64,000 nucleotides of DNA from Phaeocystidibacter luteus (GTDB lineage Bacteria > Bacteroidota > Bacteroidia > Flavobacteriales > Schleiferiaceae), in contig NZ_WBVO01000003.1 in the NCBI RefSeq assembly GCF_008933115.1, positions 62,001-126,000 on the forward strand, read 5' to 3'. Of the stretch, positions 24,011 to 60,424 are shown piece by piece. A program made the position numbers and the translations under genes. Positions within the stretch are counted from its first letter, which is position 1, and every line of letters starts with the position of its first letter. The notes beneath the pieces are model-generated. The model searched no databases, was not told where the DNA came from, and saw only the letters and a program-made list of their open reading frames with translations.

Positions 24011-25645
24011 TCAATACTCGATGAATGGTAATGCCTCTTCGAGAACCTCGCCAAAAGCAGCGTGAGGTAGAGCGGTTCCAAGCATCAACGAGAGGGTGGG
24101 AGCGAGATCAACAACATGTACTTTGCGGTATACATTCCCAGCTGGAATCGACGGCCCCATCAGTAGCATTGGTACGTGAGTATCATACGTGTAACCCGAT
24201 CCATGGGATGCACCCACACTGCTGTAAATGTAATTTCCGTCCCTCCATTCAATGAAGAGGCCGGCCGATCTTTCGTCCACAAGGTTCCTTCTCAATTTGG
24301 CTTGATACGAATCCGTAGAATTGATTTCTTCTAGGGTCCAAATTTTCTTAAATGCATCTACCTGAGAAAGCCCTAGCGCCAATTTCTCGCGAATTGCCGA
24401 CTGTTCAATTCCTAACGAAACTACCTGACTTTCATCTAAATAGAGTGAGTTGTTATAGAATTTCTCAATGACATTTACGCCGAAGATATCCTCCGAGATT
24501 TCGACCATTTCCACCATTAAATCTGCACTAGAATGGTTGGTGGCATTCATCCTGAGCTCCTCACCAAAATGATTCGGGTTTTCCGCAACGCCATGGTCAG
24601 CCGAAAGAAAAACAACCCAGTTCCCTTCGCCATATTTGGCATCCATGGCATCAAAAAGTCGCTTTAATTCCAAGTCCAACCTCAGGTATGTGTCCATCAC
24701 CTCTCTCGAACGCGGACCATACGCATGGCCGATGTAATCTGGAGATGAATAGCTAACAGAGATGAAGTCGACGTATTGATCATCTGCAATCTCGGCAGGA
24801 ATGTTATCAATCATCGCTGTGGCAAAGTCGGTGAGGTATTGGTTCCCATAGGGGGAGGCTAGCATCGCCTTTGGACCTCTGGTTTTCACCCATTCAGACA
24901 CATCGTGCGGAAAGGCTGAGCTGGAATTGCCAAAGGTCGATTCGTACGGGTTGTCATCGGGTAAGCAAGCCGAATATGCCTCTTCTTCAATCATGTAGTC
25001 CCAAATTCCGGTGTAATCGGCCAGACTGGCGTTCTTCGCATGAAAGCTTTGAACCCACTCTGGGGTTTCATCCGTATAGTATGTGCTCGTTACAAATTGG
25101 CCGGAGCTACCAAACCAATAGGCCTCATCCGCGGCGTGACCTCCAGGAAGGATGGCGCCTCTGTCTTTTATTGAAACCGCGCCGATGTACGATTGTCCGC
25201 CCGTCGATAAATGAAGCTCGTCCGTAACCGTCGTCGTACGTAGGTTTCGCGGTGACTTCATTCCATCACCTTCAGAAGTGGAAATACCTATGGTCGATTC
25301 AAGGGTATCCTCCACACAGTAGTGCTCCGTTTTGGTGATGGGGTCGTACCAATCGTTTCCAATTATACCGTGGTCTCTAGGCTGTGCTCCGGTAAAAATG
25401 GTGGCGTGACCAGGAGCTGTGTACGTTGGAATGTGGGAATAATGACAATTGCGGTAAATAAGTCCGCTAGATAAGAACTGCTGAAAACCACCTGTGAAGT
25501 GCGGTGCGAACCGCTCGAGATACTCTGCTCTCATTTGGTCGACAGTAATGCCGACAACAGCTTTGATCTCGTTTTGAGCAAGTGCAATTGTGCTAAAGAA
25601 ACTAATTAAGACAAGGACTCCAGCTTTTCGTGTGTTTCTTCCCAT
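24011..25645 (-). CDS. PafA-like alkaline phosphatase
   Basis: 544 residues with a signal peptide (to about A23-Q24). The alkaline phosphatase superfamily core is intact: metal ligand D36 (TVDQ), nucleophile T76 in PTYTAPGH, N97 in IIGNDWYD, a KDR pair (SIKDRGAILPGGH) matching the K/R substrate-binding pair of Flavobacterium PafA, and metal ligands in SADHGVAENP and GASHGSGYTYDTHVP. PafA is a periplasmic or exported phosphomonoesterase that releases phosphate from organic esters, not repressed by phosphate in described cases. Its start overlaps the ABC-F gene end by 40 bases, so it may be co-transcribed with it. Nucleotide-pyrophosphatase activity is less likely. Confidence 0.88.
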   Translation of the reverse strand: MGRNTRKAGVLVLISFFSTIALAQNEIKAVVGITVDQMRAEYLERFAPHFTGGFQQFLSSGLIYRNCHYSHIPTYTAPGHATIFTGAQPRDHGIIGNDWYDPITKTEHYCVEDTLESTIGISTSEGDGMKSPRNLRTTTVTDELHLSTGGQSYIGAVSIKDRGAILPGGHAADEAYWFGSSGQFVTSTYYTDETPEWVQSFHAKNASLADYTGIWDYMIEEEAYSACLPDDNPYESTFGNSSSAFPHDVSEWVKTRGPKAMLASPYGNQYLTDFATAMIDNIPAEIADDQYVDFISVSYSSPDYIGHAYGPRSREVMDTYLRLDLELKRLFDAMDAKYGEGNWVVFLSADHGVAENPNHFGEELRMNATNHSSADLMVEMVEISEDIFGVNVIEKFYNNSLYLDESQVVSLGIEQSAIREKLALGLSQVDAFKKIWTLEEINSTDSYQAKLRRNLVDERSAGLFIEWRDGNYIYSSVGASHGSGYTYDTHVPMLLMGPSIPAGNVYRKVHVVDLAPTLSLMLGTALPHAAFGEVLEEALPFIEY

Positions 25646-49477: not shown

Positions 49478-49576
49478 GAAGTTTCGTTTGGTGTGCCTAC
49501 TCTTATGGCTTTTCAGCTGCCGCCAATCTCAACCTTTGAGATTAGTGTAAAGCACAGAAGAAAATGCAGGCAGACG

Positions 49577-53244: not shown

Positions 53245-54303
53245 GTGCCAGATTCTCATAATTTAGAACGCAAGCGGATTCTTTTCCTTGTCCTCAATTG
53301 GGGATTAGGACACGCTACACGTTCTGAGGTGTTAATCAACGAACTACTCCATAGAGGATTTGAGGTTCACATTGCCAGTGATGGTGACGCGCTACACGTT
53401 CTTCAAAAGAGCTTTCCCGAGCTCACTTTTCACGAGCTGCCGGGTTACGGTATTAAGTACGGCACGGGGGCTACCAATCTTCTCAAGTTGCTTTTGCAAG
53501 CACCTACAGCAATGGGGGTCATGAAGCGAGAACGAAAGCTTATTCAATCCCTACACGCTGAATTCGATTATGATGGATTGATTTCAGATAATCGCCCTGG
53601 GGTTGCTATTGAAAGTATTCCTTCGGTATATATCACGCATCAACTTAACATTAAAGCGGGATTGATGTCGAAGCAGGTGAGTGCCGCACACGCTAGATTT
53701 TATCGCTCCTTTGATGAGGTTTGGGTTCCTGATGATCCTGTGAGGAGCATGTCAGGGGATCTTTCAGAATCGGAGTCAAGTCTTCGCGTGAAGTACATTG
53801 GAACACTTTCCAGGTTGCGAAAACTGCCGATTCAAAAGCGTATTCCGTGGGCCGCAATTTTAAGTGGTCCTGAGCCAGCACGATCGGAGTGGGAGAGTGA
53901 GTTGAGGGCTGTTCGGAATTCCTTACCAGAGGGTGGAATCATTGTAAGAGGCAAACCGGGTGAAGGGATAGTAGAGGAAGGGGTGGTAGATTATATGAAC
54001 AGCGAGGAGTTGTCACAGCTCTATGCCGATGCTGAGGTTATCATTACCCGATCTGGATACTCGTCATTGATGGATTTAGTCACATTGGGAAAGAAGGCAC
54101 TTTTGATTCCAACACCTGGGCAAACGGAGCAAGAATACTTGGCGGTTCATCAATCGATGGTGGGGTGGAGCGCTTCGAAACAAGGAAGCTGTGATTACCT
54201 GAAGGAAATTGAAAAGCTACGCGACGAAACCGCCCCGAAACCTATTTCATCTGCCTTGCCGGCTGATTTATTTGGCCTTTTTGAGCGTGAAAGAGAAGGT
54301 TGA
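53245..54303 (+). CDS. MurG-like (GT28-type) glycosyltransferase
   Basis: 352 residues from a GTG at 53245. The N-terminal GT-B half opens with RILFLVLNWGLGHATRSEVL (residues about 10-29), and the C-terminal half has the MurG-like donor site ITRSGYSSLMDLVTLGKKALLIPTPGQTEQEYLA. Substrate unknown; a lipid or sugar-nucleotide acceptor is usual in the family. It has no membrane segment. The 3' end overlaps the convergent phoR-like gene by 36 bases. Confidence 0.88.
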   Translation: MPDSHNLERKRILFLVLNWGLGHATRSEVLINELLHRGFEVHIASDGDALHVLQKSFPELTFHELPGYGIKYGTGATNLLKLLLQAPTAMGVMKRERKLIQSLHAEFDYDGLISDNRPGVAIESIPSVYITHQLNIKAGLMSKQVSAAHARFYRSFDEVWVPDDPVRSMSGDLSESESSLRVKYIGTLSRLRKLPIQKRIPWAAILSGPEPARSEWESELRAVRNSLPEGGIIVRGKPGEGIVEEGVVDYMNSEELSQLYADAEVIITRSGYSSLMDLVTLGKKALLIPTPGQTEQEYLAVHQSMVGWSASKQGSCDYLKEIEKLRDETAPKPISSALPADLFGLFEREREG

Positions 54304-55314
54304 TCCTACGCCTGAGGTACTGCGCACATTGATGGTTTGCTTGTGCGCATCTACGATGTGCTTCACAATGGCGAGACCTAATCCTGAGCCACCAACATCG
54401 CGGGAGCGGCTTTTGTCTACACGATAGAATCTTTCGAAAATTCTAGGGATATCAGTTTCCGGAATCCCCATTCCGTTATCCGCTACTTCGATGAGGAATT
54501 TGTCATCCATGTCGAAAATTCCCACTTCAACATATCCTTTTTCCTTTCCGTATTTCACGGCGTTCACAACCAGGTTGGCGAGAACTTGCTCGATGCGATG
54601 TGGGTCGCCTTCAACCTTCATCGGTCTGTCGTAATCCTTTTTAAGCTTGAGCTTGATGGACTTCTCTTCGGCCTTGTCTTCGAGCATTTCGAAAACGTCT
54701 CGGATGGTCTTGAGCACATCGAACTGTTGCTTGCGAACGTCCATTACGCCGGATTCGAGCTTGTTGAGAACGTCCATGTCTTGAACAAGAGCAATCATGC
54801 GATCTACGCTTCGGTTGGCACGATTTAAATACTTCTTGTTGATTTTCGGATCGTCAAGAGCGCCATCCAGAAGGGTGAGGATATACCCTTGAATATTGAA
54901 GATTGGGGTTTTCAATTCGTGACTTACGTTGCCGATAAACTCACGTCTGAATGCTTCACGTTCTTTCAGTTCGCGTATTTCGGTATTGCGTTCTTCGGCC
55001 CATTCCGAAACTTCGCGTTCGACCATTCGCAAGTCGGAAGTTCGAGCGATGAGGTCTTCTTCTTCATCGCTACCTAATTTCAATTCGTGAATGTTCTTGT
55101 AAATCAGTTTCACCTTGGCATAGATGAACTGTTGAATCACAAAACGAACGAAGATGAAAGTTAGGCTGGTAACGCCAATGAGTAAGGCTAACGCGAGGAC
55201 ATAATTGAACTCGATGCTCAAAATTGCCGTACCGAGCCAATATCCACCAGAAGTGAGCAATCCAAGTGCGATGGCAACAAGGGTGGCCAGTACTTCCGGC
55301 TTTTCGATGCGCAT
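54268..55314 (-). CDS. PhoR-like sensor histidine kinase
   Basis: 348 residues: two membrane helices (about 10-28 and 38-60) with almost no periplasmic loop, HAMP/coiled segment, HisKA with H132 in FIGNVSHELKTPIF, and HATPase motifs (NLVVNAVKYG, VADNGMGIPE, GGSGLGLAIVKHIV). The short topology matches phosphate sensor PhoR, which reads the Pst transporter state through PhoU and not an external ligand; no pst or phoU gene is in the window. It lies 9 bases after the response regulator. Gene name is by similarity only. Confidence 0.88.
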   Translation of the reverse strand: MRIEKPEVLATLVAIALGLLTSGGYWLGTAILSIEFNYVLALALLIGVTSLTFIFVRFVIQQFIYAKVKLIYKNIHELKLGSDEEEDLIARTSDLRMVEREVSEWAEERNTEIRELKEREAFRREFIGNVSHELKTPIFNIQGYILTLLDGALDDPKINKKYLNRANRSVDRMIALVQDMDVLNKLESGVMDVRKQQFDVLKTIRDVFEMLEDKAEEKSIKLKLKKDYDRPMKVEGDPHRIEQVLANLVVNAVKYGKEKGYVEVGIFDMDDKFLIEVADNGMGIPETDIPRIFERFYRVDKSRSRDVGGSGLGLAIVKHIVDAHKQTINVRSTSGVGSTFSFTLKKAK

Positions 55315-55323
55315 GGGTAAGAT

Positions 55324-56010
55324 TTAGTCCTCGAATTTGTATCCCACACCTTTAATGGTGCGAATCTTTTCATCTCCAATTTTCTCTCTGAGCTTGCGGA
55401 TGTGCACGTCGATGGTACGACCACCTACGATGACATCTGTGCCCCAGATTTTGTCCATGATTTCTTCACGGGAGAAAACTTTGCCTGGACGAGAGGAGAG
55501 GAGAGATAGCAATTCAAACTCCTTTCTTGGGAGGTCGAGTTTGTTTCCTTTGAGGCGAACTTGATACTTTTCTTGATCGATGACGAGGTCGCCGAATTCG
55601 AGCTTTGTTGAGCGTTCTTCTTCGCCGTTGTTGATGCGGCGCATGAGCGCGCGAATGCGGCTGATGAGAACTTTTGGTTTGATGGGCTTGGTGATGTAGT
55701 CATCAGCTCCTGCTTCAAAACCTGCAACTTGGCTGTAATCTTCACCTCTCGCGGTTAAGAAAGCGATGAGAGTGCCGTCGAGTTCAGGAATCTTTCTGAG
55801 CACATCACATGTTTCGATGCCGTCCATTCCTGGCATCATCACATCTAGAAGGATGAGGTGCGGTTTGTGCTTCTTCGCTTTTTCAACGGCTTGTTCGCCA
55901 TTGTTTGCGGTTTTGATTTTGAAACCTTCTTTCTCGAGGTTGTATCCCACGAATTCTAGGATATCTGGTTCATCATCAACCAGTAGAATTTTCATGTCGC
56001 TCGTCTCCAT
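55324..56010 (-). CDS. PhoB-like OmpR-family response regulator
   Basis: 228 residues from the ATG at 56008-56010 (METSDMKILLVDDEPD); an ATG 15 bases on is possible. The longer ORF from 56103 would begin upstream of the -7 element. Receiver with D56 as phospho-acceptor (LLDVMMPGMDG), T/K positions (FLTARGED, YITKPIKP), and a winged-helix trans_reg_C domain (VDIRK-like end VGGRTIDVHIRKLREKIGDEK). Partner of the PhoR-like kinase. Its target set likely includes the divergent lipoprotein promoter with 11-bp direct repeats. Confidence 0.9.
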   Translation of the reverse strand: METSDMKILLVDDEPDILEFVGYNLEKEGFKIKTANNGEQAVEKAKKHKPHLILLDVMMPGMDGIETCDVLRKIPELDGTLIAFLTARGEDYSQVAGFEAGADDYITKPIKPKVLISRIRALMRRINNGEEERSTKLEFGDLVIDQEKYQVRLKGNKLDLPRKEFELLSLLSSRPGKVFSREEIMDKIWGTDVIVGGRTIDVHIRKLREKIGDEKIRTIKGVGYKFED

Positions 56011-56062: not shown

Positions 56063-56070
56063 CAAAAGTA
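56063..56070 (-). promoter_or_regulatory. -7 promoter element of the phoB-phoR operon
   Basis: Minus-strand TACTTTTG fits TAnnTTTG and lies 52 bases before the chosen ATG. No -33 TTTG is at the proper distance; direct repeats at 56097-56124 lie upstream. Confidence 0.5.
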
Positions 56071-56096: not shown

Positions 56097-56124
56097 TTAA
56101 CAATTACATAACCAAAGATTACAT
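56097..56124 (+). promoter_or_regulatory. Possible response-regulator boxes upstream of phoB
   Basis: Hexamers TTAACA (56097), ATAACC (56108) and TTACAT (56119) are spaced exactly 11 bases apart with 5-base spacers. They sit 27-54 bases upstream of the phoB -7 element, a fit for autoregulation. An overlapping alternative is the exact heptamer ATTACAT repeated at 56103 and 56118. Confidence 0.4.
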
Positions 56125-56180: not shown

Positions 56181-56208
56181 TTCAATCTGAGTTAACGAGG
56201 GCTTAACG
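56181..56208 (+). promoter_or_regulatory. Direct-repeat operator TTCAAT-N5-TTAACG-N5-TTAACG
   Basis: TTAACG occurs at 56192-56197 and 56203-56208, with TTCAAT at 56181-56186, all 11 bases apart. This is the period used by PhoB/PhoP (OmpR-family) dimers; the hexamer with N5 spacer resembles the Bacillus PhoP box TT(A/C/T)A(C/T)A. The last copy ends 9 bases before a -7-like element, the place of a -33/-35 box. Confidence 0.6.
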
Positions 56209-56217
56209 TTCTAACTG

Positions 56218-56225
56218 AACCTTTG
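56218..56225 (+). promoter_or_regulatory. -7-like element of the beta-helix lipoprotein gene
   Basis: AACCTTTG matches TAnnTTTG in 7 of 8 positions, 29 bases before the ATG at 56255. It lacks a -33 TTTG, and the TTAACG repeats occupy that site, consistent with activator dependence. Confidence 0.5.
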
Positions 56226-56254
56226 CACCGTTCGAAACACAAACAATTCTTGAA

Positions 56255-57526
56255 ATGAACACAATCAAAAAATTCGGAAAGTACGCAGCTATGGCAGCTG
56301 TTGCTCTCACTTTTGCTTCTTGTGGTGAAGACGAGCCACCAGTAGTTAAAAAACCAGACAACGAAACACTTGCTGGACTTATCGCTGAAGATATGACTTT
56401 GACTAGCGACCGCGTATGGGAGCTTGCAGGTCGTGTTGTAGTTGACAACGGTGTTACTTTGACTATCGAGCCAGGAACACTTATTAAAGGTCAAACTGCT
56501 ACAGGTTCTTTGGCTTCTGTATTGATCGTTGCACGTGGTGGTAAGATCATGGCTGAAGGAACTGCTGCTGATCCAATCATCTTTACTTCTTTGGCTGACA
56601 ACATCGAAATTGGTCAGAAAGTAGGAACAAACCTAGAGCGCACAAACAACGAGCTTTGGGGTGGATTGATCATTTTGGGTGATGCTCCAACTTCTGCTGA
56701 GAACGGAGACACGGAAACAAACATCGAAGGTATTCCAGCTAACGAGACTTACGGTCTTTATGGTGGAGCAAATGCTTCTGATAACTCAGGTGTATTGAAG
56801 TACGTTTCTGTACGTCACGGTGGTACTCTTATCGGTGAAGGTAACGAGATCAACGGTATCACTTTCGGTGGTGTTGGTAACGGTACTGTAGTTGACCACG
56901 TAGAGGTTTACGCTACTTTGGACGACGGTATTGAGTGCTTCGGTGGTACAGTAAACATCTCTAACGCATTGGTATACTACCAAGGTGACGACGGTGTTGA
57001 CCTTGACATGAACTACTCTGGTACATTCGACAACTTCGCTGTAATTCACGGTGACGGAATCGGAACTGACGAAGGTCTTGAAATCGACGGACCTGAGAAC
57101 TCTACTTACACTGACGGTCTTTTCACTTTGATCAACGGTACTGTTATGACAGAAGGAGAAGGTTCTGCAGCTGACCTTAAGTCTAAGGCTCAAGGTACTT
57201 TGAACAACATCAAGTTCTCTGGATACTCAAATGGTGCTACTTTGAAGATCCGTGCTTCTTACCAGAACGATTGCGCTGACGCTAAGGAAGACGCTTTCAC
57301 TCACTTGACAGACGCTACTCCAACTTTGATTGTTACTGGTTCTGAGTTCAACGCAGTTAGCGTTTACACAGGATCTACTGACAGCAACGACGACGATTGT
57401 ACTGTACCTGCGGCTGACCAAACTGCTGCTGAAGCGTTGGTAGTTTCTACTACTGCTACAGGTGCTGACTTGAGCGTATTCGCTGGATGGACTGCTGCTG
57501 ACAACAAAGGTCAACTTCCTCAGTAA
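56255..57526 (+). CDS. Beta-helix surface lipoprotein, highly expressed type
   Basis: 423 residues. MNTIKKFGKYAAMAAVALTFASC is a lipoprotein signal with the lipobox cysteine at about 23. The body reads as a right-handed beta-helix (VSVRHGGTLIGEGNEINGI, VDHVEVYATLDDGIECFGG, DDGVDLDMNYSGTFDN), rich in Asp and Gly with putative calcium-binding turns. The end FAGWTAADNKGQLPQ recurs, in my memory, in similar Bacteroidetes proteins paired with TonB receptors, often misnamed multidrug transporter. Codon use is extremely biased (ACT, GGT, TCT, GTA, GAC), implying abundant expression. Probably acts with the TonB receptor at the outer membrane. Ligand unknown. Confidence 0.8.
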   Translation: MNTIKKFGKYAAMAAVALTFASCGEDEPPVVKKPDNETLAGLIAEDMTLTSDRVWELAGRVVVDNGVTLTIEPGTLIKGQTATGSLASVLIVARGGKIMAEGTAADPIIFTSLADNIEIGQKVGTNLERTNNELWGGLIILGDAPTSAENGDTETNIEGIPANETYGLYGGANASDNSGVLKYVSVRHGGTLIGEGNEINGITFGGVGNGTVVDHVEVYATLDDGIECFGGTVNISNALVYYQGDDGVDLDMNYSGTFDNFAVIHGDGIGTDEGLEIDGPENSTYTDGLFTLINGTVMTEGEGSAADLKSKAQGTLNNIKFSGYSNGATLKIRASYQNDCADAKEDAFTHLTDATPTLIVTGSEFNAVSVYTGSTDSNDDDCTVPAADQTAAEALVVSTTATGADLSVFAGWTAADNKGQLPQ

Positions 57527-57613: not shown

Positions 57614-60424
57614 ATGAAGAAGGCAATTTTCACCCTCACTCTAGTTCTCACCGCGCTACTTGGAAACGCACAGGACGGTTTCCTTCGCGGAACAGTTGTA
57701 GATCAAGATTATGGCGAGCCAGCCGTAAACGCAACCGTTGAGATTGAGGGAACAGCTATCAAAGGCCTGACAGACTTTGACGGCAACTATTCAATCACTC
57801 TTCCAGCCGGTACGTACAATGTGCGCTATACCATGTTCGGTATGCAACCCGTTGTAGCCAACGTTACCATTTTGGAAGGTGAAGTAACTATTCAGGACGC
57901 GGTTCTACAATCCGGATCACAAGTGATTGGTGACGTAGACATCGTTGTTCAAGCTACTCGCAACAGCGAAGTAGGACTCGTTCTTGAAAGAAAGAACACG
58001 TCTAATGTGATGGACGGTCTATCATCACAAACCTTTAGAAAAATCGGCGATAGTAACCTTAGTGGTGCGATTGGCCGTGTAACCGGTGTTTCTGTACAAG
58101 ACGGAAAGTACGTTTATGTACGTGGTCTTGGCGACCGTTACACCAAAACAACTTTGAATGGAATGACGATTCCGGGTCTCGACCCAGATAAGAACTCTGT
58201 TCAAATTGACATCTTCCCTACGAAAACACTCGAGAACGTAATGATTTACAAGACGTTCTCAGCCAACCTATACGGTGACTTCACAGGTGGTTTGGTGAAT
58301 GTTGAAACCAAGTCGTTCCCTGAAGTTCCAACTACTCAGATCAGTGTTGGTGCAACCTATTTCCCAGCGATGCACTTCAACAGTGATTTCATCCTTTATG
58401 ATGGTGGTAATTTTGACTGGGCCGGGTTCGACGACGGTACCCGTGCATTCCCACTTTCTCAATATGAAGACGTTCCGGCTAACCCAACGTACCCACGTTC
58501 TACCGACCTTACCAATAGCTTTGGTAAGACTATGGCCGCGGAAAGTGCGCTTGCGCTTCCGAACTTCAGCTTGAGTTTCAATACGGGTGACCAAATCAAT
58601 ACGGAGAATGTAACCTACGGGTACAACTTCGTAATGAACTACCAGATTCAGAATACATACTACGACGAGTATGTTTCAAATGTGTTCTTGAAGCCAGTTG
58701 GTAGCGAGAACTACGAGCTCTTCCAAGACGAAGGTCGTGAGGGTAACCTCGGACAACGCTCTGTACTTTGGAGTGCGCTCGGTTCCGGTGCCATGAAATG
58801 GGGAACAAACTCACTCGAGGTTCTTCTACTTCACAGCCAAGGTGGTGAGTCTTCAGCATCACAGCGTTGGTCTCAGAACTACAACCAAACAGGTGCACTT
58901 CTTCGCGAAGAAATCCTCACGTATACTCAGCGTTCATTGACCAACAACATGTTGATCGGTAAGCACCAGCTTGATGACAACTGGAAGCTTGAGTGGAGAA
59001 ACTCATTTACAGTTTCTAGAGTATACGACCCTGATTTTCGCACCACATCGATTTCTTACACTAGCGGCTCACCAACACTCAGCGTGGGTGATGGAGCAGG
59101 TATCAACCGTTTCTGGAGAGATTTGAACGAATGGAACGAGAGCTTTAGAGCTGACGTTAGCCGCAATTACGGCGAAGGAGGAAAAGTTAGCTTCGGTGGT
59201 GTAGTTGATTTCAAATCACGTGACTTCGTGATTTACAACGCAAACTTCCGCCGTCGCGAGACTTCAAACATCAGCGAGGATCCAAACTGGTTCTTTGAAG
59301 AAGAGAACATCTTCTCTGATGTGAATCCAGATGGCACCTACGTTCGCTATAACTTCGAACCTTCGAATGCCTTCACATCATCACAAAACATCTTCTCTGC
59401 ATACGTATTGAATGAGCACTATCTCTCAACTCGTATCAAGGCGATTTACGGATTGCGTGTGGAGCAAGGCTTGATGTACTACACAGGAGAAACACAGCCT
59501 GGTCCGAGCTACGAGCAGTTCAACAATGCGAATACGCTCAATGAGTTGAACTTCTTGCCAAGTGCTGCTTTAGTATACGATTTGAACGAGAGCATGAAGC
59601 TTCGTGCATCTTACTCGATGACTTTGGCGCGTCCTTCATTTAAGGAGAAGTCTGCAGCTCAGATTTTCGACCCGCTTACGAAGCGTACCTTCATCGGTAA
59701 CCTCGATCTAGAGCAAACGAACGTTAACAACTTCGACTTGCGTTACGAATGGTTCTTCGAAGGAGCTGACCTCTTTGCGGTATCAGGTTTCTACAAGACT
59801 TTTGAGAACCACATCGAGCTTGTGTCGTTCCAAACCGCTCCGGATAACATTACTCCTCGAAATGCAGGAAGCTCAACCGTGTTTGGAGCTGAGGTTGAAA
59901 TCAGCAAATCACTTGAATTCCTTGCGGAGTCTCTGAAGAACTTCAAGTTGGGTGGTAACTTCTCGTATGTTGAATCACGCGTTGACCTTCACAGTGTAAT
60001 TGTTGACGCAAATGGTCAAACTGAATTCGAACTTCGTCAGGCTAACTTGCGCGACGGTGAAGAATTGAAAGAATACCGTCCGATGGCTGGTCAGGCTCCG
60101 TACACCTTGAACTTGAATTTGAACTATGCTCACCCTGAATCGGGATTGAATTTGAGCGCAGCTTATAACGTTCAGGGAACTTTCCTAGCGATTGTAGGAT
60201 CTGGTCGTGTTCCAGATGTGTACACGGTTCCTTTCCACAGCTTGAACTTCAACGCGTTCATGGACTTTGGTGAAGAATCAAGACACAGAATCACCTTGGG
60301 TGTTAACAACGCATTAAACGGTGAGCGTCACAACGTATATCGTTCGTTCCGCGCACAAGATGAAACGTACTCCCGCTTCCTTCCAGGAGTTGGAATTAGC
60401 TTGAAATACGGCTACCGTTTCTAG
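57614..60424 (+). CDS. TonB-dependent outer membrane receptor
   Basis: 936 residues: signal peptide (to about A19-Q20), carboxypeptidase-regulatory-like domain (about 24-105; GFLRGTVVDQDYGEPAVNATVEIEG region), plug domain (about 125-235; GVSVQDGKYVYVRGLGDRY and NVETKSF), and a 22-strand type barrel ending ISLKYGYRF with terminal Phe. It should import a nutrient across the outer membrane using TonB energy. It is not a SusC, since no SusD gene follows; the partner looks to be the beta-helix lipoprotein. Substrate unknown; with PhoB-like control a phosphorus compound is a reasonable guess. Confidence 0.9.
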   Translation: MKKAIFTLTLVLTALLGNAQDGFLRGTVVDQDYGEPAVNATVEIEGTAIKGLTDFDGNYSITLPAGTYNVRYTMFGMQPVVANVTILEGEVTIQDAVLQSGSQVIGDVDIVVQATRNSEVGLVLERKNTSNVMDGLSSQTFRKIGDSNLSGAIGRVTGVSVQDGKYVYVRGLGDRYTKTTLNGMTIPGLDPDKNSVQIDIFPTKTLENVMIYKTFSANLYGDFTGGLVNVETKSFPEVPTTQISVGATYFPAMHFNSDFILYDGGNFDWAGFDDGTRAFPLSQYEDVPANPTYPRSTDLTNSFGKTMAAESALALPNFSLSFNTGDQINTENVTYGYNFVMNYQIQNTYYDEYVSNVFLKPVGSENYELFQDEGREGNLGQRSVLWSALGSGAMKWGTNSLEVLLLHSQGGESSASQRWSQNYNQTGALLREEILTYTQRSLTNNMLIGKHQLDDNWKLEWRNSFTVSRVYDPDFRTTSISYTSGSPTLSVGDGAGINRFWRDLNEWNESFRADVSRNYGEGGKVSFGGVVDFKSRDFVIYNANFRRRETSNISEDPNWFFEEENIFSDVNPDGTYVRYNFEPSNAFTSSQNIFSAYVLNEHYLSTRIKAIYGLRVEQGLMYYTGETQPGPSYEQFNNANTLNELNFLPSAALVYDLNESMKLRASYSMTLARPSFKEKSAAQIFDPLTKRTFIGNLDLEQTNVNNFDLRYEWFFEGADLFAVSGFYKTFENHIELVSFQTAPDNITPRNAGSSTVFGAEVEISKSLEFLAESLKNFKLGGNFSYVESRVDLHSVIVDANGQTEFELRQANLRDGEELKEYRPMAGQAPYTLNLNLNYAHPESGLNLSAAYNVQGTFLAIVGSGRVPDVYTVPFHSLNFNAFMDFGEESRHRITLGVNNALNGERHNVYRSFRAQDETYSRFLPGVGISLKYGYRF

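Follow-up and report, generated by a model that had tools for sequence, protein, structure and literature searches.

The window analysed here, 64,000 nucleotides of the Phaeocystidibacter luteus contig NZ_WBVO01000003.1, contains a gene for a PhoB-type response regulator and, divergent from it, a gene for a beta-helix lipoprotein, with two arrays of 11-bp-period repeats in the gap between them (Table 1). The regulator belongs to the OmpR/PhoB family, with PF00072 and PF00486 (Trans_reg_C) both above cut-off. Its best NCBIfam model is PhoB, below cut-off (223.5 vs 296.2 and 220.9 vs 270), so that it does not qualify as a PhoB equivalog by TIGR02154 / NF053854 and is therefore called PhoB-type. 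For the kinase, PnpS/PhoR are the best NCBIfam models, also below their cut-offs (247.7 vs 334.2). The beta-helix protein has no match in Pfam or NCBIfam; its predicted structure (pLDDT 81) is rich in beta-strand, and its closest PDB folds in a fold search are parallel beta-helices, as weak matches. The TonB-dependent receptor gene that follows is probably co-transcribed with it. Elsewhere in the window, a DUF805b RNA motif (RF02914) lies at 49494-49526 on the minus strand, above its gathering score.

Table 1. Features of the phoB/beta-helix locus and the PafA-like gene, in window coordinates.
Feature	Position	Strand	Remarks
PafA-like phosphodiesterase/phosphatase	about 24029-25612	-	
Glycosyltransferase Glyco_trans_1_3, adjoining phoR	53245..54303	+	PF13528/PF04101; compare Fjoh_0541
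phoR-type histidine kinase	54268..55314	-	HisKA + HATPase_c
phoB-type response regulator	55324..55995	-	receiver + winged helix, PF00072 + PF00486
phoB -7 element TACTTTTG	56063..56070	-	perfect TAnnTTTG
Second box, TTAACA-N5-ATAACC-N5-TTACAT	56097..56124	+	half-sites at 56097, 56108 and 56119; opposite to phoB transcription
Half-site 1, TTCAAT	56181..56186	+	about -49 to -44; second T and A invariant across 25 aligned promoters
Half-site 2, TTAACG	56192..56197	+	about -38 to -33, on the -33 element position; TTAA essentially invariant
Half-site 3, TTAACG	56203..56208	+	about -27 to -22; spacer to the -7 element exactly 9 nt wherever conserved
-7 element AACCTTTG, beta-helix gene promoter	56218..56225	+	TTTG invariant in 25 promoters
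Predicted 5' leader, 25 nt	56230..56254	+	start inferred from -7 spacing (PMC6847099)
Beta-helix lipoprotein, presumed target	56255..57526	+	F. johnsoniae FII counterpart (PMC8115612)
TonB-dependent receptor	57614..60424	+	Pfam; same gene order in most related loci

Two repeat arrays between phoB and the beta-helix gene

A preliminary description of this DNA had placed hexamers at 56181, 56192 and 56203, in 11-base steps and followed after 9 nt by AACCTTTG, and these coordinates are all exact. The pattern TTAAC-N6-TTAAC occurs once in the window against 0.07 expected, and a 51-column weight matrix whose training set included this site scores it at 37.7, with a runner-up in the window at 9.1. 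No Rfam match was found at the main box.

In the convention used for Flavobacterium johnsoniae, the -7 element spans -12 to -5 and transcription starts 4-5 nt downstream of it (PMC6847099), and with this spacing the beta-helix gene is predicted to start near 56230. The Bacteroidota -7 consensus is TAnnTTTG, of which the TA is nearly invariant among F. johnsoniae promoters (PMC6847099). In AACCTTTG the first base is off consensus, the A at the second position being kept and the preceding T missing; across the beta-helix promoters that second position is A in only 4/25 and T in most. A TTTG -33 element is absent from the window promoter, where half-site 2 takes its place, and the repeats cover about -49 to -22, in agreement with the earlier proposal that they replace the -33 box. 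Judged as a sigma-ABfr promoter (-7 TAnnTTTG, -33 TTTG), the site thus has the TTTG of the -7 element, an incomplete TA and no -33, the pattern expected if it were activator-dependent. The departure from a near-invariant TA points to a weak core promoter that would need an activator.

The second three-copy 11-bp repeat in the gap had been overlooked in the preliminary description. Its distance to the phoB -7 element is 26-27 nt in all nine loci where that element can be recognised, whereas its distance to the main box ranges over 84-228 nt in the same loci, and it is therefore assigned to phoB. It probably serves phoB autoregulation, though it is inverted relative to that gene; in phosphate-depleted F. 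johnsoniae, phoB rises by log2 3.06 (PMC8115612).

Conservation in the family and reach across the class

Of 88 genomes of the family, 81 encode an ortholog of the regulator and 71 the beta-helix protein. In nearly all fetched loci the beta-helix gene is divergent from phoB, with a TonB receptor 3' of it in most loci for which enough downstream DNA was fetched. Conservation of the repeats at the same gene pair in relatives, on which the preliminary description had staked its reading, was found in 25 of 27 gaps, each with three half-sites at an 11-bp period, exactly 9 nt and TTTG; the main box is missing from the other two (L025, L026). Across the conserved gaps, identity in the beta-helix protein ranges over about 45-81%. 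Every one of these gaps agrees with the template at 14 or more of its 17 positions, with p values of about 0.01 or below relative to dinucleotide-shuffled sequence. The half-site and TTTG columns hardly vary, and most of the flanking columns are not conserved. When periods of 8-14 were scanned against spacers of 4-16 (91 combinations), period 11 with spacer 9 was the single sharp optimum, at 11.2 with a runner-up at 8.0. The same combination was again the best, though weakly, among some 50 phoB promoters that a separate protein search had retrieved, 11/50 of which have the geometry against 1 expected; in phoB promoters of Bacteroidales (Draconibacterium, Lentimicrobium) the box faces phoB.

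A sequence-only model, R1, was trained solely on the phoB-adjacent beta-helix promoters. Its top genome-wide match is the beta-helix promoter in most family genomes that carry the gene, many of them outside the training set, and weaker matches lie before genes for a PHO4/PiT transporter, plcP with a glycosyltransferase, and PhoX. A pattern search, in which loci were chosen by eye from a list rich in chance matches, added further promoters of PHO4 and plcP genes, together with a small number of sites before genes for PafA-like proteins, metallophosphatase, PhoX and phosphate porins. Overall, matches to a loose pattern of two half-sites exceed the control only mildly (207 vs 153); single loose matches therefore carry little meaning, and full models with a column-reversed control were used.

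The reading of the repeats as a Pho box gains support from the same box before phosphate genes in the P. luteus genome itself and across Bacteroidia. The plcP promoter of this genome reads TTCATT-N5-TTAACC-N5-GTAAGA-N9-TACTTTTG and is kept in both congeners. Before the PHO4/PiT gene (L225-L227; C21:219136 in P. luteus) the two best half-sites lie one 11-bp register upstream in all three genomes, 20 nt from a near-consensus -7 element (TATTTTTG, or TACTTTCG in one congener). A site before a Glu/Leu dehydrogenase gene (L205, L206) was dropped, as it has no half-site 1 and no phosphate link. Boxes were also looked for before the glycosyltransferase gene next to phoR and the PafA-like gene of the window, and none was found at either. 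PafA has been reported to be phosphate-insensitive, with which the lack of a box at the latter gene agrees; a box does precede the PafA-like gene in two genomes of another genus (L207, L208).

A broader model, R2, whose training took in some phosphate-gene sites, has hits in 117 of the 296 genomes scanned at order level. Among 40 inspected out-of-family sites, 29 precede pstS, phosphate-porin, PhoU-like/PHO4, Na/Pi cotransporter, MauG, beta-helix or TonB-receptor genes, about seven are of a MORN type described below and four have no gene assignment. At class level a site is present in 80/296 genomes, against 5 with the column-reversed control model. Phosphate, phoB, beta-helix or TonB-receptor genes are found at 52 of the 89 class-level sites, or at 44 when TonB receptors, a large family, are left out; downstream genes were identified from the first ORF by Pfam or by blastp against a limited reference set, and some of the sites left unassigned may therefore be phosphate genes. 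The class-level counts for PHO4, plcP, PhoX and porin are not fully independent of R2 training, whereas the pstS, phoB, PhoU-like and Na/Pi sites were in no training set. At nine class-level sites the gene is phoB itself, with the box facing it. A clear box also precedes a gene for a CCP_MauG di-haem peroxidase (L264, L266, L268). In F. johnsoniae the MauG-like Fjoh_2477 is strongly induced by phosphate depletion, and plcP and TonB-receptor genes are induced as well (PMC8115612).

A strongly conserved box of sequence TTTACACTGAGTTAACATTGGGTTAACAT lies 5' of a small MORN-like secreted-protein gene adjoining yaaA and points against that gene (L122, at G000:C25:146506-146584; L155-L159, L162-L164, L169, L290-L293, L300, L353 and L397). 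At L306 and L328 a box faces an operon with a MORN_2 gene instead. The TTTACACTGAGTTAACATTGGGTTAACAT look-alike is kept outside the Pho-box claim, since its promoter geometry differs and the MORN-like gene has no known phosphate role.

A candidate Pho box and its alternatives

The main repeats are very probably a Pho box for the adjacent PhoB-type regulator, through which the beta-helix gene would be activated under phosphate shortage. Three features by which a Pho box is recognised are found here: tandem direct repeats with an 11-bp period, overlap with the -35/-33 region at a fixed distance from the core promoter (relative to a predicted start site), and occurrence ahead of genes for phosphate acquisition, both in this genome and in relatives. 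From the sequence, its geometry, conservation and gene context we infer the binding protein, the need for its phosphorylation and the activating effect. In cells short of phosphate, the adjacent PhoB-type OmpR-family regulator would be phosphorylated by the PhoR-type kinase, and its dimers, arranged head to tail, would occupy the row of TTAACA-like half-sites at about -49 to -22 along a single face of the helix. The bound dimers may then stand in for the weak -33 element and recruit the sigma-ABfr polymerase to the non-consensus -7, which would switch on the beta-helix lipoprotein and TonB-receptor genes.

The balance tips slightly towards a wider proposal, that Bacteroidia share a class of activator-dependent promoters with three Pho half-sites wholly in place of the -33 element, at a set distance of 9 nt from a non-consensus -7. 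Such promoters would form one regulon of beta-helix/TonB, lipid-remodelling and phosphate-transport genes, possibly with the MORN-like gene and, via an inverted box, phoB.

It is very improbable that the box is bound by another OmpR-family regulator (RprY- or ArcA-like, for example) that also controls phosphate genes. The sites of OmpR-family members do resemble one another: ArcA too uses three or more 11-bp repeats (PMC3798270), the motif of Riemerella anatipestifer PhoP resembles that of ArcA (PMC9603813), and a look-alike box is conserved by the MORN-like gene, which has no known phosphate role. Yet the box occurs class-wide in the promoters of phoB itself and also in the gap that separates phoB from its divergent neighbour, the genes it targets are phosphate genes, and in Riemerella a Pho-type regulator was shown to bind TTTAACA (PMC9603813).

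Repression by the regulator through the main box is very improbable. Its position directly 5' of the -7 element is that of an activator site, a promoter with a non-consensus -7 and no visible -33 should need help, and the counterpart lipoprotein gene of F. johnsoniae rises about 1000-fold (log2 9.9) under phosphate depletion (PMC8115612). The observations in favour of repression come from Riemerella, where pstS is up about 8-fold in a phoPR mutant, a rise that does not fit simple activation (PMC5399024), and where, among the direct targets of PhoP, those with raised expression in a phoP mutant (34) outnumber those with lowered expression (16) (PMC9603813).

That the repeats are functionless, arising by chance or from common ancestry of the intergenic DNA, is effectively refuted by the reversed control: TTAAC is AT-rich and frequent and a loose pattern has many chance matches, but the near-invariant columns stand among mostly variable flanks, the identical layout precedes unrelated phosphate genes, and 80 genomes have a site against 5 for the control.

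Activation through a Pho box would bear on more than this locus. Organic phosphorus is recycled to a large extent by Bacteroidota, whose response to phosphate has become known chiefly through transcriptomics and proteomics. A defined operator would make the regulon predictable in any genome and would link uncharacterised beta-helix lipoproteins and TonB receptors to phosphate. The divergent sigma-ABfr polymerase has a weak -33 element, and the box would give a concrete case in which its cooperation with an activator can be studied.

Comparison with known Pho systems

The closest likeness in gene content is the PhoBR cluster PUSIV of F. johnsoniae (Fjoh_0541-0549), in which a glycosyltransferase, phoR, phoB, a TonB receptor and a beta-helix-type lipoprotein lie together; the lipoprotein and TonB receptor are strongly induced on phosphate depletion, and the glycosyltransferase Fjoh_0541 is a phosphate-induced member (PMC8115612). 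Unlike the present locus, PUSIV comes with no described operator or promoter, and its OprP and extra genes are absent from the window (PMC8115612).

The closest likeness in the motif is PhoP of Riemerella anatipestifer, also of the Flavobacteriales, an OmpR-family Pho regulator with TTTAACA as its top conserved bases. It binds its own promoter and that of a TonB receptor (DAP-seq and EMSA, 2022), its link to phosphate is weak or inverse, and its DAP-seq targets were interpreted as aerotolerance and membrane genes (PMC9603813). The motif was compared there with that of ArcA, and in the available passages promoter geometry and a phosphate regulon are not described (PMC9603813). A TTAACA-binding Pho regulator in Bacteroidota is thus not new, and the preliminary remark that a Pho box in Bacteroidetes is not well described needs qualifying by the TTTAACA motif published in 2022 (PMC9603813). 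Besides Riemerella PhoP, a search of the openly licensed literature found no Bacteroidota Pho box and no description of the geometry of three half-sites, 9 nt and -7 or of a class-wide phosphate regulon. NCBIfam holds Bacteroides PhoB/PhoR models, and further work on Bacteroidota Pho systems therefore exists.

Like the array described here, the Pho box or PhoB operator of E. coli consists of head-to-tail 11-bp repeats over the -35 region of activated promoters (PMC4415409, PMC3348028). Its half-site is CTGTCAT, in contrast to TTAACA here. The PhoP box of Bacillus subtilis is built of tandem TTAACA-like repeats with an 11-bp period, but it works with another sigma factor and other promoter elements. 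Unlike the E. coli box, the one described here is tied to a sigma-ABfr -7 element at exactly 9 nt and usually comprises three half-sites.
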